From Nitrospirota bacterium (GTDB taxonomy: Bacteria; UBA2233): a DNA stretch of 7,098 nt. Positions 470-7,001 of this stretch are shown one piece after another (within the stretch, counting starts at the first letter, position 1; every line of letters begins with the position of its first letter). The translations under genes were made by a program, and so were the position numbers. The DNA is taken from assembly GCA_011620345.1 (NCBI GenBank), contig WOZJ01000050.1, forward strand, positions 28,614-35,711. The letters are read 5' to 3'. The notes beneath the pieces were generated by a model. It had not been told where the DNA came from. It was given only the letters and a program-made list of their open reading frames with translations, and ran no database searches.

Positions 470-2209
470 ATGCCGGATTATGACGTGATCGTGGTCGGGG
501 GAGGGGGGGTCAACGGGCTAACGTGCGCCTCCTACCTAGGAAAGGCCGGACTAAAAGTACTTGCACTCGAAAGACGAGGACAGTGCGGGACGCACTGCGA
601 TACGCTGGAGCCTGGGATACCCGGCTTTTTGCACAACCTGCATGCAACGTGGATTGTGGCCGGAAATTCCTCGGCTATGGCGGATTTAGAGCTCGAGAAG
701 CACGGGCTTGAGCTGCGAACGACGAACTACGCCTACGCCAAGACTTTCTTGGACAAAAAAAACGCCCTTCTTGGGTACTTTACGGACGATACCATAGCGA
801 ACTGGGCAAAGCTATCCAAAAAGGATGCCGAGACATTCGAAAAAATGGTGAACGCCGTTTTTAAAGATATTCCGAGCGCTATCGAAGCGTTCCATGAGAT
901 GTCGGAAAGACCCCCTTCGTATGCATCCACCAAGAAGGCGAGCGACGCCCTTTTATCGAACGCACTCGGTTCTGTGGGTGTTCATTTGGGTTTTTCCGAA
1001 ATTTGGCAGATGAACGGGTTTGAGCTGCTGAACCTGCTTTTCGAATCCGAACATGTTAAAACGATGCTCGCCTCCCTTGCCTGGATCGCCGGCTTCCCGC
1101 CCATTCATAGGGCTGTGGGTTCTTTTGCTGGAGCTGTCTCTGCCCTTTTTGGAGGCCCTTTGGTTGCGATCACGCAAGTCAAGGGGGGTTCGCATGGGTT
1201 GGCTCATGCTCTCGTAAAGTCTTGCGTGGCCAATGGGGTGGAGATCCGCACGTGCTGCCCGGTTAAAAAAATCCTTGTCGAAGACGGCAAAGCGGTAGGC
1301 GTGGAGCTCGAAGACTACGCCCTGTTCCCCTCCGAGAAAATCACGGCCAAGGCCGTCGTTAGCAATTGTACGGCCGTTCCCACGTTTATTCACATGATCG
1401 GAGAAAATCATCTGCCTGAAGAAATCGCGGAGAGGATCAAGACGTTCGTTTATGACGAACAAGTCCTGTTTGGGGCCCATTACGCCATTAAAGAACCTCC
1501 CGTATGGACATCGGCCGACTTTGATCCTGGCGTTCAGAGGGCATTTATGGGGTACATGGGCGGTGAAACGATGGAAGAGATGGAGGGTTATGCGGCAAGC
1601 CTCGTGAGTGGGCGTATTCACGATAAGGTGATTGCCAACTGGTTTGTTCCCACGCTTGCCGACCCCACGCAGGCGCCGGACGGCTGTCATACGATGTTCG
1701 TGTGGTTTGACGTCCCGCCATGCCCGGGATCATGGAAGAACAGAAGGCTGGAAGGGAACCTGGAAGTCTGGCACAAGATCAAGTATGAGATGATGGACGA
1801 AATTACGGAAGGTATCGAGCAGTTTGCGCCGGGATTCAAGAAGTCCATCATTGAGAGGTTCCCCTATACTTGCGCGGACGTCTTCAGGAACAACCCCTCG
1901 GCTATCAAGGGTTGTTGGGACGGAGGAAGCGCCATCCCCGATCAATTCTTTGCCAACCGGCCCGTTCCTGGGGTCATCAAGCCTTTATCGGGATCTCGGA
2001 CGTTCATTGACAACCTTTATCTTTCGAATTCAATCCACCTTCATGGAAACTCATCGCTTAGTTCTGGGTATATATGCGCTAGCGAAGTTGCAGAGGATTT
2101 CGGTGTTCGAAACAAAGACTGGTGGAAATCAAGGGCAGGCGAGTGGTATGTGGAGAACCTCTACAGGATCCCGAAGGACTTGGGCGTAAAAGACCAGTGG
2201 AAAGGCTAA
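470..2209 (+). CDS. FAD-dependent oxidoreductase, phytoene desaturase / PYROXD2-like (divergent paralogue)
   Basis: This 579-residue flavoprotein should oxidise, desaturate or isomerise C-C bonds of an apolar substrate; the substrate cannot be read from sequence. The N-terminal Rossmann dinucleotide motif is clear: GxGxxG at G11, G13 and G16, then an acidic residue, E34, ending the second strand. The family's next signature follows at about 39-61, ending PGFLHNLHATW. Residues 236-300 hold the second FAD-side block (KGGSHGLAHAL, then VVSNC). The C-terminal FAD segment at 514-546 (LYLSNSIHLHGNSSLSSGY) is recognisable but has Asn520 and Asn527 where the neighbouring paralogue has Gly490 and Gly497, and Thr41 where it has Gly47. 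There is no signal peptide or membrane span, so it is probably cytosolic. It is about 40 residues longer than its neighbour. AAAGGAG at 457-463 supports the start. Family assignment is sure; specific activity and full FAD-binding competence are not. Confidence 0.9.
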   Translation: MPDYDVIVVGGGGVNGLTCASYLGKAGLKVLALERRGQCGTHCDTLEPGIPGFLHNLHATWIVAGNSSAMADLELEKHGLELRTTNYAYAKTFLDKKNALLGYFTDDTIANWAKLSKKDAETFEKMVNAVFKDIPSAIEAFHEMSERPPSYASTKKASDALLSNALGSVGVHLGFSEIWQMNGFELLNLLFESEHVKTMLASLAWIAGFPPIHRAVGSFAGAVSALFGGPLVAITQVKGGSHGLAHALVKSCVANGVEIRTCCPVKKILVEDGKAVGVELEDYALFPSEKITAKAVVSNCTAVPTFIHMIGENHLPEEIAERIKTFVYDEQVLFGAHYAIKEPPVWTSADFDPGVQRAFMGYMGGETMEEMEGYAASLVSGRIHDKVIANWFVPTLADPTQAPDGCHTMFVWFDVPPCPGSWKNRRLEGNLEVWHKIKYEMMDEITEGIEQFAPGFKKSIIERFPYTCADVFRNNPSAIKGCWDGGSAIPDQFFANRPVPGVIKPLSGSRTFIDNLYLSNSIHLHGNSSLSSGYICASEVAEDFGVRNKDWWKSRAGEWYVENLYRIPKDLGVKDQWKG

Positions 2210-2214
2210 GGGGG
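2209..2214 (+). promoter_or_regulatory. Shine-Dalgarno site of the second flavoprotein, touching the preceding stop
   Basis: AGGGGG (one mismatch to AGGAGG) begins on the last base of the upstream TAA and lies 5 nt before the ATG at 2220. With only 10 nt between the genes, a ribosome finishing the first flavoprotein is well placed to restart on the second. This suggests translational coupling and roughly matched amounts of the two proteins; the coupling is an inference. Confidence 0.6.
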
Positions 2215-2219
2215 AAAGA

Positions 2220-3833
2220 ATGAGCGTTTGGCTGCAAGAAGGAAAAGTATACGACGCAATCGTCATAGGAGCTGGGATTAACGGTTTGACATGCGCGGCG
2301 TACCTGGCGAAGGCGGGGCTCAAGGTCGTCGTGCTGGAGTCTAGGCATGAAGCCGGGGGCGCGCTCGTCACGGAGGAGTTCTCGGGCTTTAAGTTCAACC
2401 TTCATGCGACTTACCACATGATGGCCGAATACATGCCCCTCTACCACGACTTTAACCTAAAGTCCTATGGGTTGAGATATGTGTTCCCGGAAGTCCAAAC
2501 GGCCTTCCTTTACAAGAAAGAGAAGCCCCTTGTGTTCTACAGGGATCCAAAGAAAACGATAGAGTGTTTTAAGGCCGTCCTAGGGGAGGGCGAAGCCAAG
2601 AAATTCGAGCGGATGTACGAAGAATTCAAGCAGATGACGGAAAAGGTGCTAATCCCCCTTACATACGTTCCTCCCGTTCCTCCCGTCGACATGGTCCAGC
2701 TATTACAAGACTCCAAGGACCCGATGGTGAGGAAATTCAACGAGATTTCCGAAATGCGGCCGATCGACATCTTGGAGGAATACGGGCTTAGTTCTAGGGC
2801 CAAGGCGGCCGTCTTGAGCCTCATGACTTTATGGGGGGTTTCCCCCTTCGAGGCGCTGGGCTATCTTTTGCCCTTGTACGTCGTCAGGATGACGGATGCA
2901 GGGCTCTGTCTGGGCGGATCGCACAGGCTTTCATCGGCGCTTTGCAAGGCGCTGATCAAAGAGGGTGGGGAGATCTACGAGAAGGCCGAGGTGGTGAAAG
3001 TCTCAATGAGCGGGGGTCGGGTGGATGGCGTTCACCTCGAGGACGGAACCTTGGTAAAGGGTAATTGCATTATTTCAACGCTCGACCCAAAACAAAGCTT
3101 TCTCGATTTCTTCGAGGGGGGGCAAATCGATAATGTTCTCCAGGAAAACGCCAAGAATTGGAAGTGGGAAGAGCGGACGTTCTTCACCGTCCATCTTGGC
3201 CTCAAGCAGGCCCCCGAATACACGTCAGCCCAAAAGAACCCCGACGTGAACCGGGCGCTTAGCTGCATCCTTGGAATAGAGGAGATCGATGAGTTGCTCG
3301 AAAACATCGAACGCATCGAGGGGGGCGCGCTGCCCGAAAAGATCGAGGCACGGGCTACTTGCACGACAGTGTTCGATCGCCTTCAGGGGCCGATCGGGTA
3401 CCATACAGGCAGGTTTGAGACTACTGTACCCTTCGATATGGACTGGGAAAGTTTGAAGGACGGCTTCGCCGACAAGTGCCTTGAAACCTGGAGGGCCTAC
3501 GCCCCCAACATCGTCGACCCAGTGCATACCTATGCCTACCCCCCGACCTACATCGAAAAGAAGTTCAAGACGATGGTCCGGGGCTCTTTCAAGCATGGTT
3601 CCTACGAGCCCCTCCAGATGGGCTATTTCAGGCCAAACGATCTATGCTCCCAGGTAAGGACCCCGATCGATGGGTACTTCGTTTGCGGTTCTAGCGTGTA
3701 CCCTGGCGGAATGATCCTTGCCGGCCCCGGTTATATAGGAGCTAACGTCGTTTGTGAAGAGCTTGGGGTGAAAAAGGCATGGGAAGAGCCAGCCATAATC
3801 AAAGAAGCCAGGAAGTCGGGGATTATCGAATAA
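2220..3833 (+). CDS. FAD-dependent oxidoreductase, phytoene desaturase / PYROXD2-like (canonical paralogue)
   Basis: This 537-residue flavoprotein is a paralogue of the gene just upstream: the two share the NGLTCA core of the Rossmann motif, KAGLKV after it, NLHAT near residue 60, a GGSH segment and a GYI...E.LGV ending. All family landmarks are intact here: GxGxxG at G17, G19 and G22; acidic E40; the double glycine G46-G47; and the C-terminal FAD segment at 484-511 (FVCGSSVYPGG, then GPGYIGAN). The length is normal for the family. It probably acts in the cytosol on an apolar, perhaps isoprenoid or fatty, substrate with FAD as redox carrier. The likely electron acceptor (quinone, NAD(P) or O2) cannot be told. 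Tight spacing suggests co-production with its paralogue, possibly as a heteromer. A carotenoid role is not favoured because no phytoene synthase or prenyl synthase gene is nearby. Confidence 0.92.
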   Translation: MSVWLQEGKVYDAIVIGAGINGLTCAAYLAKAGLKVVVLESRHEAGGALVTEEFSGFKFNLHATYHMMAEYMPLYHDFNLKSYGLRYVFPEVQTAFLYKKEKPLVFYRDPKKTIECFKAVLGEGEAKKFERMYEEFKQMTEKVLIPLTYVPPVPPVDMVQLLQDSKDPMVRKFNEISEMRPIDILEEYGLSSRAKAAVLSLMTLWGVSPFEALGYLLPLYVVRMTDAGLCLGGSHRLSSALCKALIKEGGEIYEKAEVVKVSMSGGRVDGVHLEDGTLVKGNCIISTLDPKQSFLDFFEGGQIDNVLQENAKNWKWEERTFFTVHLGLKQAPEYTSAQKNPDVNRALSCILGIEEIDELLENIERIEGGALPEKIEARATCTTVFDRLQGPIGYHTGRFETTVPFDMDWESLKDGFADKCLETWRAYAPNIVDPVHTYAYPPTYIEKKFKTMVRGSFKHGSYEPLQMGYFRPNDLCSQVRTPIDGYFVCGSSVYPGGMILAGPGYIGANVVCEELGVKKAWEEPAIIKEARKSGIIE

Positions 3834-3840
3834 CACGCTT

Positions 3841-3848
3841 AAAGGAGG
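3841..3848 (+). promoter_or_regulatory. Shine-Dalgarno site of the aldehyde dehydrogenase, with long spacing
   Basis: AAAGGAGG is the strongest ribosome site inside the block. It lies 11 nt before the ATG at 3860, longer than the usual 5-9. The GTG at 3850 is out of frame, and no alternative in-frame start lies between, so the ATG at 3860 is the best choice. Confidence 0.65.
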
Positions 3849-3859
3849 GGTGATAGGGT

Positions 3860-5383
3860 ATGTTCTTACCCTCGGGTGTTTATGGGCTTTTTGTGGATGG
3901 GCAGTACATTGAGTCGGTTTCCGGCGAAACGTTCGATGTTATCGACCCCTCGATGGGTTTTGCCGTGGCCCAGGTGGCCAAGGGCGGTGCTGAGGACATC
4001 GATCGCGCCGTGAAGGCGGCGAGGAGCTCTTTCGAGTCGGGCGTTTGGAGCCGTGTCTCCCCCAAGGAACGGGCGAGCGTTTTGGATAACATCGCCAAGA
4101 AGATCATGGAGTATGCCGAACAGATGGCCCTTTTGGAGGTTCAGAGCTCCGGGGCCACGATCCGGAGGGTGATGAGTTCTGACATCATGCTGGTCGTAGA
4201 CCTCTTCTTGCAGATGGCGAACTTTACGAGAGATTTCCCCCATAAGGAGCCCCTTGCGGCCATCCCTTTGCCTGGGCCGTCCCACAACTTCGTCATCCGT
4301 GAACCGGTTGGGGTCTGCGGGGCGATCTCGCCATGGAACTTCCCGTTGATCTTGGGTTGCTGGAAGATTGCGCCCGGCCTTGCCATGGGCAATTCGATGG
4401 TCGTCAAGCCGGCCAGTTATACTCCCCTTTCCACTCTCTTAATGGGGCAGATCTGCAAAGAGGCTGGCCTACCGGATGGCGTTCTTAACATCGTCCCGGG
4501 TCCAGGCTCGACGGCCGGTGAGACCCTGGCAAGCCATCCTGACGTTGATAAAATCGCGTTCACGGGCTCGACGGTCGTGGGCAGGAGGATCATGCAACTT
4601 GCCGCTGGCACGATCAAAAAGGTCACGCTGGAGCTCGGCGGAAAGTCCCCTAATATCATCCTGGAGGATGCCGATTTAGACATCGCCGTTCCGGGGTCTT
4701 GCTTTGCGTTCCTTCTGCACAACGGCCAGGTATGCGAGTCGGGTACGAGGCTGCTCGTCCCCCAAAAGCTCCACGACGAAGTCGTCGAACGGATGTGCCA
4801 CGTGATAGGGAGGCTCAAGGTCGGCAATCCGTTGGACCTCGAAACCGACCTTGGTCCGGTCATCTCCGCCCAGCAGCTCGAAACCGTCCTTTCCTACATC
4901 GAGGCGGGCAAGCAAGACGGGGCTAAGCTCATGGTCGGCGGCAAGCGTATAAGGCCAGAAGGGTTTGAAGAGGGCTACTACGTGGAGCCCACTGTGTTCA
5001 CGAACGTCAACAACGACATGAGGATCGCCAAGGAGGAGATCTTTGGGCCGGTCTTAAGCGTCATCCCTTACAAAGATTTGGACGACGCCTTGCGTATTGC
5101 CAACGACACGATCTACGGGCTTGCGGGCGGGGTATGGACGAAAGACCCCAAGAAGGGCCTCGAGGTGGCCAGGGCGATCAAGGCGGGGACGGTATGGATC
5201 AACGACTGGCACCTTTTGAGGAACGATGCGCCGTTTGGGGGCTACAAGCAAAGCGGCATCGGCAGAGAGCTCGGCCACTTTGGGCTTGAGGAGTACACCC
5301 AGGTCAAGCATATTCACCAATCGATGGTCCAGGACCGCCAAAGGCGCTTCTGGTACGACCGCATCGTAACGCTCAAAGAGTAG
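3860..5383 (+). CDS. NAD(P)-dependent aldehyde dehydrogenase
   Basis: This 507-residue enzyme of the ALDH superfamily oxidises an aldehyde to the carboxylic acid with NAD(P)+. Everything needed for catalysis is visible: N160 in PWNFP, which holds the oxyanion; K183 in VKPAS for cofactor binding; the FTGSTVVG glycine-rich turn at 234-241; the general base E258 in LELGGKSP; the nucleophile C292 in NGQVC; E393 and F395 in EEIFGPV; and the closing PFGGYKQSGIGRELG at 458-472. The position usually held by a cofactor-discriminating Glu after KPA is Ser186, so NADP+ use is possible. Length is typical, with a roughly 20-residue basic-aromatic tail after the last family motif. No signal peptide is seen; it is probably cytosolic. 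It is followed after 10 nt by an alcohol dehydrogenase, making an alcohol-aldehyde-acid pair. The substrate and subfamily are not identified. Confidence 0.95.
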   Translation: MFLPSGVYGLFVDGQYIESVSGETFDVIDPSMGFAVAQVAKGGAEDIDRAVKAARSSFESGVWSRVSPKERASVLDNIAKKIMEYAEQMALLEVQSSGATIRRVMSSDIMLVVDLFLQMANFTRDFPHKEPLAAIPLPGPSHNFVIREPVGVCGAISPWNFPLILGCWKIAPGLAMGNSMVVKPASYTPLSTLLMGQICKEAGLPDGVLNIVPGPGSTAGETLASHPDVDKIAFTGSTVVGRRIMQLAAGTIKKVTLELGGKSPNIILEDADLDIAVPGSCFAFLLHNGQVCESGTRLLVPQKLHDEVVERMCHVIGRLKVGNPLDLETDLGPVISAQQLETVLSYIEAGKQDGAKLMVGGKRIRPEGFEEGYYVEPTVFTNVNNDMRIAKEEIFGPVLSVIPYKDLDDALRIANDTIYGLAGGVWTKDPKKGLEVARAIKAGTVWINDWHLLRNDAPFGGYKQSGIGRELGHFGLEEYTQVKHIHQSMVQDRQRRFWYDRIVTLKE

Positions 5384-5389
5384 GGGGTG
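5382..5389 (+). promoter_or_regulatory. Shine-Dalgarno site of the alcohol dehydrogenase, overlapping the preceding stop
   Basis: AGGGGGTG (one mismatch to AGGAGGTG) begins inside the TAG stop codon of the aldehyde dehydrogenase and ends 4 nt before the ATG at 5394. This favours the ATG at 5394 over the in-frame ATG four codons later at 5406, and suggests coupled translation of the two dehydrogenases. Confidence 0.6.
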
Positions 5390-5393
5390 TTCC

Positions 5394-6590
5394 ATGCCAA
5401 CGACGATGTCCCAGTATTTCCTCAAAACGGCCATCTACCAAGGTTCGGGAACTATTGCCATGATTCCAGATATGCTCTCGAGCCTAGGGGCTAAAAGGGC
5501 CGTGCTGTACACGGACGAGGGGATTGTAGCCTCCGGGGTTCTGGATAAGGTAAAGACAATGTTCGAGCTTCCGGGGAAAGGCCTTGCCTGCGATCTTGCG
5601 GGGGTTTTTGATAAGGTCCCGCAAGATGCCGAAATGGCCTCCGTAAACGAAGGGGCGCGGTTTTTCCGTGAGCGCGCCGCCGATGCGCTCGTTGCGCTCG
5701 GTGGCGGGAGCGTCCTCGATTTTGCAAAGGGCGTCAAATACCTCCTCTATAAAGGGGAGGACGATATTAGGGCGCTCATGCCGGGCAATATGGCGATCGT
5801 GACCTGGCCAAAGGCCGAGCCCATTCCCATCCCGCACGTCGCCATAAACACGACGGCCGGTACGGGGGCCGAGATCTCCCCGATCGCCGTGATCTACAAC
5901 GCCGCAGATAAGGTCAAAGGGGTCTTGCTCCATCCGTTTCTCAACTCAGACGTGACCATCCTTGACCCCGATTTGACGACCGGGATGCCAAAGGAGTTTA
6001 CAGCAGGAAGCGGTTTCGATGCACTCACCCATGCCATCGAAGGAATAGCAAGCCCTGGAGCCTTTGGAATTTCTGATGCCAACGGCTTTGAAGCCATCAA
6101 GACGATCAACAGAAGGCTCCCCGTGGTCCTCGAAGAACCGGGAAACGTCTCGGCGCGCAACGATATGCTGGGCGCCTCGGCGATGGCGATCATCTCGTTC
6201 TTTTACTCGGGCATGAGCCAGATTCCCGTACACAATTTTGCCCATGCCTTCGGGGGCAAGTACAGGGTTCCGCACGGGTATGCCAATGGGGTGTTTTTAA
6301 CGCATGTCATGGAGGCTATGCCCGAGCTTTACTTGCCGAAGGTCAAGGATTTGGCTAAGGCATTCGACCTCGAAGACCTAAAAAAAGAACCTGATGGCCT
6401 ATTGAGTGATGTGATTTCAAGGATTCGGCAGCTTCAGAAGCTTGCCGGTATCCCCGAGGATTTGAAGAGTTACAACATACCAAAAACCGCGCTGGATGAC
6501 ATGACCAAGGCCGTCATGATGGACCCCTCAGGGATCCTGTTCCCGATTCCGGAAGAGACCATAAGAAAAGTGATTCAGAGGGTCATCTAA
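5394..6590 (+). CDS. Iron-containing (group III) alcohol dehydrogenase
   Basis: This 398-residue Fe-ADH family protein interconverts an alcohol and an aldehyde or ketone with NAD(P)(H). The N-terminal nucleotide domain carries GGGSVLDFAKG at 103-113 and the family's TTAGTGAE at 153-160. The four expected metal ligands are all present: D209 and H213 in GFDALTHAIEG, H280 in VHNFAH, and H294 in VPHG, with the 14-residue spacing of the last pair seen in FucO-type enzymes. H284 matches the additional conserved His of that motif. Length is normal. There is no signal peptide; it is cytosolic. Enzymes of this family often use Fe(II) and are oxygen-sensitive, which suits low-oxygen life, though other divalent metals occur. 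Its position straight after the aldehyde dehydrogenase suggests the two share an aldehyde intermediate. Direction and substrate cannot be read; hydroxyacid-oxoacid or butanol-type activities remain possible. Confidence 0.95.
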   Translation: MPTTMSQYFLKTAIYQGSGTIAMIPDMLSSLGAKRAVLYTDEGIVASGVLDKVKTMFELPGKGLACDLAGVFDKVPQDAEMASVNEGARFFRERAADALVALGGGSVLDFAKGVKYLLYKGEDDIRALMPGNMAIVTWPKAEPIPIPHVAINTTAGTGAEISPIAVIYNAADKVKGVLLHPFLNSDVTILDPDLTTGMPKEFTAGSGFDALTHAIEGIASPGAFGISDANGFEAIKTINRRLPVVLEEPGNVSARNDMLGASAMAIISFFYSGMSQIPVHNFAHAFGGKYRVPHGYANGVFLTHVMEAMPELYLPKVKDLAKAFDLEDLKKEPDGLLSDVISRIRQLQKLAGIPEDLKSYNIPKTALDDMTKAVMMDPSGILFPIPEETIRKVIQRVI

Positions 6591-6608
6591 CAAAACAAAG
6601 GAGAAGCT

Positions 6609-7001
6609 ATGAGAGTTTTAAGCGACGAGTGGGTTAAAGCGGCAATCGAATCCCTCAAAAACGATGCAGATTACCAAAAGAAGGCAAAGGGGTTCGATTC
6701 CACACTACAGTTCATTGTGACTGATGTTCCCGGAGAGGCATCAGAAAAAGTATTCGGAGCGAAGGCGCCACAGATTGATGAAGTTTGGATCGGACAAAGG
6801 CGTGAAGGGTGCGATTATACAATAAATGTTACCTACCCGATTCTTAAAGATCTCCTTGCAGGGAATCTCTCTGCCACAATGGCTCTGATGCAGAAAAAAA
6901 TCAAGATTGAGGGCAACATGTCGAAGGTCATGAAGTACGTCGGGGCCGTCAACCGCATGATCGATCTCATGAAAACCGTCCCGAGCGAGTGGCCGGCCTA
7001 A
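6609..7001 (+). CDS. SCP2 sterol-carrier-domain protein
   Basis: This 130-residue single-domain protein matches the SCP2 sterol-binding fold. The diagnostic part is residues 78-110, where ILKDLLAGNLSATMALM is followed by KKIKIEGNMSKVMKY, the usual SCP2 order of helix, strand carrying the K-x-x-G step, and helix. Before it come an N-terminal helix (5-27) and beta strands (31-38, 57-62, 69-75). SCP2 domains bind lipids, fatty acyl groups or sterol-like molecules in a hydrophobic tunnel and present them to enzymes. No signal peptide, targeting tail or fused domain is seen, so it is a free cytosolic carrier of usual size. AAAGGAG at 6597-6603, 5 nt before the ATG, supports the start. As last gene, it probably delivers or holds the apolar substrate of the enzymes upstream. 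Its 5' three-quarters is visibly more AT-rich than its last 100 bases. Ligand unknown. Confidence 0.88.
   Translation: MRVLSDEWVKAAIESLKNDADYQKKAKGFDSTLQFIVTDVPGEASEKVFGAKAPQIDEVWIGQRREGCDYTINVTYPILKDLLAGNLSATMALMQKKIKIEGNMSKVMKYVGAVNRMIDLMKTVPSEWPA

Follow-up and report, generated by a model that had tools for sequence, protein, structure and literature searches.

Which compound would a bacterium oxidise with a set of genes that places a pair of flavoproteins beside an aldehyde dehydrogenase (ALDH), an iron-dependent alcohol dehydrogenase (Fe-ADH) and an SCP2-domain lipid carrier? The question is raised by a stretch of 7,098 nucleotides from a Nitrospirota bacterium (contig WOZJ01000050.1; hereafter the window), in which an earlier, sequence-only reading had recognised these five genes and suggested a pathway for a hydrophobic alcohol or isoprenoid-like compound. 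Our analysis somewhat favours the view that the window covers the 3′ portion of a block for the oxidation of a hydrophobic compound, following the logic of the Ctm/Geo pathway; taken as a whole, this is the model that fits best. ORF calling and Pfam bear out the five genes in one direction, with gaps of 10, 26, 10 and 18 nucleotides. The block is larger than had been noticed: an open reading frame (ORF) for a small conserved protein, here called WSKGLG, precedes the first flavoprotein gene, and two further flavoproteins of this type are encoded upstream of the window, on the far side of a scaffold gap: A2 (580 residues) and B2 (557 residues). The overall order is thus A2-B2-(gap)-WSKGLG-A1-B1-ALDH-FeADH-SCP2, with four flavoproteins in total.

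Class of the paired flavoproteins

Pfam assigns A1 and B1, the flavoproteins of the window, to the Rossmann-FAD, FAD/amino-oxidase-type proteins, and in fold and superfamily they resemble both PYROXD2 and CrtI. In Δ24-SD of Sterolibacterium denitrificans the flavin is attached covalently to the His of a consensus, G-F-L/R-X-N/S-T/L-H-A, in both subunits, and the same motif is present in both subunits of CtmAB, the limonene dehydrogenase of Castellaniella defragrans (PMC11061730). A1 fits this consensus exactly (GFLHNLHA, residues 52–59) and B1 with one deviation (GFKFNLHA), and the His is invariant across nine aligned alpha and beta proteins, alpha and beta being names that we assigned from size and order. 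In a tree of 51 homologues, the covalent-flavin His occurs in 38 of the 39 rows of the clade that holds A1 and B1 and in none of the 12 PYROXD2-type rows, which form a supported separate clade; within the His clade, A1 and A2 fall into an alpha group, B1 and B2 into a beta group. The earlier label 'PYROXD2-like' was therefore imprecise, and we reject a filing under PYROXD2: by motif and tree, A1 and B1 belong to a sister clade of PYROXD2 proper, of the covalent-flavin-His type. One row of the His clade, G087_a (L156 2-1723), has a Cys in place of the His and sits on a long branch; at its locus, xanthine-dehydrogenase-type-like ORFs lie between it and a second flavoprotein.

The pair also resembles CtmAB and Δ24-SD in the other features that sequence can test. 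A1 and B1 are adjacent, divergent subunits (579 and 537 residues, about 28% identical) in alpha-beta order, with the sizes and divergence expected of this class (about 63 and 57 kDa, 25–28% identity): the subunits of Δ24-SD measure 63 and 57 kDa and are 26% identical (PMC11061730), and ctmA and ctmB, of 1698 and 1650 bp, encode proteins 27% identical (PMC4109377). As in Δ24-SD, the His that would bind the flavin lies near the N terminus, in the window pair by motif. It is probable that A1 and B1 form a heterodimer with flavin bound covalently to this His in each subunit.

Limonene dehydrogenase was, according to a 2024 paper, the sole characterised enzyme with significant similarity to Δ24-SD (PMC11061730), so that two examples make up the characterised part of the covalent-flavin class. 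The present block points to its use in deep-branching lineages of uncultured bacteria as well, in combination with alcohol and aldehyde dehydrogenases and lipid carriers. A scan of genome contigs with short motifs returned mostly His-less PYROXD2-type proteins, and neither Castellaniella, CtmA/CtmB nor the organism of the window; B1 and two WSKGLG proteins, compared with plasmids, gave matches of 25–27% or none.

Could the flavoproteins instead be CrtI-like desaturases of carotenoid or other isoprenoid biosynthesis, with the ALDH acting as in the CrtN/CrtP and AldH logic of staphyloxanthin? CrtO/CrtI-type profiles are indeed the best NCBIfam matches of A1 and B1, but they score far below cut-off, and we rejected CrtI phytoene desaturase as their identity. 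The phytoene/squalene synthase family (SQS_PSY, PF00494) was undetected in seven genomes, the host and six others, with positive controls (7/14). Because of this absence, carotenoid synthesis is strongly disfavoured; since the flavoproteins also carry the covalent-flavin His and the operons of relatives are catabolic, we consider biosynthesis very unlikely.

A candidate route from alkene to acid

In C. defragrans, ctmAB, geoA, geoB and geoC form a pathway for terpenes (PMC4109377), in which an alkene becomes an alcohol, then an aldehyde (by an alcohol dehydrogenase), an acid (by an ALDH) and a CoA ester; Δ24-SD likewise works on an isoprenoid chain, before an alcohol dehydrogenase, an ALDH and a CoA ligase come into play. 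The earlier statement that no named pathway has the composition of the window thus needs amending, as the Ctm/Geo pathway (PMC4109377) and the anaerobic stigmasterol side-chain pathway (PMC11061730) share its logic. What that reading had proposed about the enzymes themselves, an alcohol-aldehyde-acid sequence for Fe-ADH and ALDH and an apolar substrate for the flavoenzymes, we count as supported.

For reaction, substrate and direction we infer the following. A2B2 and A1B1 would be two heterodimeric systems of the CtmAB/Δ24-SD type, each subunit with flavin covalently bound to the conserved His, which would oxidise an isoprenoid-like substrate, independently of oxygen, at a C–H bond adjacent to one of its double bonds, to yield a conjugated diene or an allylic alcohol that takes its oxygen from water. 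The Fe-ADH would convert the alcohol to an aldehyde and the ALDH the aldehyde to an acid, while the SCP2 protein may hold or shuttle the apolar intermediates. A nearby acyl-CoA synthetase could then activate the acid for beta-oxidation, and the small WSKGLG protein may associate with the membrane and act as a partner of the flavoprotein complex. Oxygen-independent C–H oxidation of terpenes and sterols is relevant to anoxic carbon turnover and to biocatalysis.

The window's block differs from the Castellaniella system in having two flavoprotein pairs, an Fe-ADH as the alcohol dehydrogenase, ALDH and alcohol dehydrogenase within the block and an SCP2 carrier, and it lacks the 2Fe-2S ferredoxin and reductase genes of ctmABCDEFG. 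Its lineage is isolated: one congener was found for the host genome (1.8 Mb, 97% complete), and the remaining sampled genomes share only its domain. In the Δ24-SD pathway hydroxylation is carried out by a molybdenum enzyme, whereas the organism of the window has a second flavoprotein pair. It is conceivable that an all-flavin route takes over both steps, with A2B2 desaturating an isoprenoid chain and A1B1 hydroxylating the allylic methyl group with water, in place of the molybdenum hydroxylase that serves anaerobic sterol degradation; WSKGLG would then be a new membrane-anchoring or electron-transfer subunit of this enzyme class, with CtmC and CtmD as its predicted counterparts. We offer this tentatively and think it unlikely.

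Proteins related to the SCP2 protein of the window flank flavoprotein pairs in six other loci (G025, G172, G310, G150, G288 and SZAS-1), which agrees with the partnership suggested earlier; in G048, a CoxG/START-like protein lies between the genes of a pair. The metal ligands of the Fe-ADH family are one Asp and three His. The corresponding motifs of the window's enzyme (FDALTH, HAFG and PHGYANG) are present and conserved in alignments with 3bfj, 8zrl and 9ldl. Relative to the sister genome, dN/dS is 0.03 for SCP2, 0.10 for the Fe-ADH and 0.08 for the available part of the ALDH; these 3′ genes are under strong purifying selection, which speaks for their being real genes.

The best PDB matches of the ALDH and the Fe-ADH are the two halves of one protein, BdhE (9ldl), a fused ALDH/Fe-ADH of Halomonas eurihalina that oxidises ethanol and choline (PDB 9LDL, PMC12454647). 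Here, too, a betaine-ALDH-like ALDH and an Fe-ADH would form one functional unit, but unfused, separated by 10 nucleotides and within a block of the hydrophobic-substrate type. Our main doubt is that the ALDH-FeADH pair may serve small polar alcohols rather than the flavoprotein product. ALDH-FeADH, with or without SCP2, would then be an unfused BdhE, an independent module for small alcohols or aldehydes of the ethanol, choline or lactaldehyde type that merely adjoins the flavoproteins. Both genomes hold a paralogous ALDH-FeADH pair beside genes of a tripartite ATP-independent periplasmic (TRAP) transporter, with no flavoproteins there, and the sister genome (93% complete) keeps ALDH-FeADH-SCP2 with no such flavoprotein found, an absence that is not proven because its contig ends within the ALDH. 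Several further points weigh against the Ctm/Geo-type reading: the kinship of the flavoproteins with CtmAB and Δ24-SD rests on motif, size and order; the motif of A2 and B2 is conserved at His-Ala and deviant elsewhere; and no ferredoxin or reductase (ctmE, ctmF) is found among the annotated neighbours of the block. Flavoprotein pairs recur with SCP2 or WSKGLG, and the sister keeps ALDH-FeADH-SCP2, but the exact ALDH/Fe-ADH combination stands beside a pair in none of the relatives examined. However, in the window both dehydrogenase genes follow B1 closely on the same strand (gaps of 26 and 10 nucleotides), the run includes an SCP2 lipid carrier whose family flanks such flavoproteins elsewhere, and an ALDH also occurs within an operon of a relative (G168). 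We regard an independent small-alcohol module as the leading rival reading, though an unlikely one.

The second copy of the pair (L055 5007-8775, G000:C31; L056 9198-12993, G001:C4), whose Fe-ADH shares about 56% identity with that of the window, is followed by a solute-binding-protein-like gene and lies opposite TRAP transporter-like genes.

A different division of labour would have the flavoproteins only desaturate, like Δ24-SD, while the alcohol dehydrogenase and ALDH use a pre-formed alcohol such as phytol or another terpenoid, the block making that alcohol degradable through desaturation and acid formation. Hydroxylation and desaturation cannot be told apart from sequence alone, Δ24-SD and CtmAB sharing the same features (PMC11061730), and the presence of two pairs also speaks for such a scheme. 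Yet an alcohol dehydrogenase, an ALDH and a nearby acyl-CoA synthetase are the set expected after hydroxylation of a methyl group, and we judge pure desaturation quite improbable.

The WSKGLG protein and the operons of relatives

The WSKGLG family has no matches in Pfam, NCBIfam, PHROG or the PDB and is, as far as our searches show, undescribed. Its 11 members occur in six of 386 sampled genomes, all six of which have alpha/beta flavoprotein pairs, and in five of the six it immediately follows the pair. Alpha, beta and two WSKGLG proteins form a quartet in G341, G211, G151, G289 and G168, the two WSKGLG proteins of these five genomes being distinct subtypes in tandem. The probability of such co-occurrence by chance, about 2e-6, overstates the case, as the seeds came from four of the six genomes, only G168 and G341 being independent; in G341, a WSKGLG match led to an alpha/beta pair previously unlisted. 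No member was found in 369 genomes of the class that a Woeseiaceae genome belongs to, a set that may not include a Ctm-bearing species and so has no bearing on CtmC and CtmD, nor in eight further genomes of the phylum of G168.

What might this protein do? At the Castellaniella locus, two small hypothetical genes, ctmC and ctmD, adjoin ctmAB. The C-terminal stretch is hydrophobic enough for membrane association in 8 of the 11 members (19-residue mean of at least 1.6), the window's own protein lying below that level at 1.16, and an AlphaFold model of the latter, of low confidence (pLDDT 60), has three strands followed by a long C-terminal helix. A role as flavoprotein partner is plausible, and its recurrence beside the pair makes the family a candidate missing subunit. 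The parts of the block are of known kinds; the combination, the doubled pair and the WSKGLG family are undescribed as far as searches show. In three other loci (L158 9807-10310, L059 12067-12555 and L154 11005-11547), a second kind of small protein with a hydrophobic C terminus lies behind the flavoprotein genes or between them; one of the three has a weak SCP2 match just under the Pfam cut-off, the other two none.

Strong matches to the flavoprotein profile occur in 47 of the 386 genomes. B1 groups as sister to the quartets' beta subunits, and A1 is the orthologue, at about 50% identity, of A1 in G341 and G211. In family f70, G341 has the order A2-B2-A1 and G211 an A2/B2 chimera followed by A1; the N-half of the chimera (L164 132-1709, G211:C4) is 61% identical to G341 A2 and its C-half 67% to G341 B2, which may stem from a deletion that fused the two genes in nature or from an artefact of assembly.

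The operons of relatives extend into carboxylate/CoA activation and beta-oxidation. In G168 the quartet continues with two acyl-CoA dehydrogenases (ACAD), an acyl-CoA synthetase, an enoyl-CoA hydratase and an ALDH, and in G151 with a CoA-transferase III, a short-chain dehydrogenase/reductase, an ACAD and methylmalonyl-CoA mutase; G289 has the same flavoprotein and WSKGLG order as G151 and similar downstream ORFs. The mutase-type genes form a pair (L162 13033-18416 in G151, similar in G289), a content that hints at a branched acid product.

Features, assembly and surroundings

A single contig piece makes up the window, which lies between two gaps of 100 N in a 258-kb scaffold (G000:C26:28614-35711). 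Its downstream join matches the sister genome, where the same gene follows SCP2, and this is the only independent backing for the scaffolding, A2 and B2 being linked to the window through the upstream gap. Co-transcription of the block is probable. The hairpin reported earlier after the last gene is present and strong, but lacks a following T-run and hence is no canonical intrinsic terminator. No Rfam RNA was detected in the 18-kb region.

Table 1. Coordinates of features in the window
Feature	Position	Strand	Basis
Small protein WSKGLG (MKLWSKGLG...), 127 aa	20..403	+	ORF; strong Shine-Dalgarno-like sequence at about 4-10
A1, alpha-type flavoprotein, 579 aa, motif GFLHNLHA	470..2209	+	Pfam, motif, tree
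A1 His58 codon, aligned with flavinylated His motif of CtmAB/Δ24-SD	641..643	+	Motif of PMC11061730; invariant column
B1, beta-type flavoprotein, 537 aa, motif GFKFNLHA	2220..3833	+	Pfam, motif, tree
B1 His62 codon	2403..2405	+	Invariant in nine aligned alpha/beta proteins
NAD(P)-type ALDH, betaine-ALDH-like, 507 aa	3860..5383	+	Pfam Aldedh, E 1.9e-171
Fe-ADH, 398 aa	5394..6590	+	Pfam Fe-ADH N and C domains
SCP2-domain lipid carrier, 130 aa	6609..7001	+	Pfam PF02036, 5.9e-11, 43.0 bits vs cut-off 21.3
Hairpin 3′ of last gene, 9-bp stem, 3-nt loop	7015..7035	+	z -2.28 for 61-nt stretch

The earlier observation that acyl-CoA enzymes are absent holds inside the window and fails for its surroundings. 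Two AMP-binding acyl-CoA synthetase-type genes lie upstream, at about 5–9 kb from the first of the flavoprotein genes, one on the minus strand with a TRAP transporter that has a TatT component, the other farther upstream with a sigma-54 activator. About 8 kb downstream of SCP2 follows a thiolase/ChsH2/FAS1-DH/MaoC/ACAD cluster, in which a thiolase, a ChsH2-type OB/zinc ribbon protein, two MaoC-like hydratases and an ACAD are consecutive (L011 3810-7588; G000:C26 43.8–47.6 kb), a row that resembles gene sets of sterol side-chain degradation.

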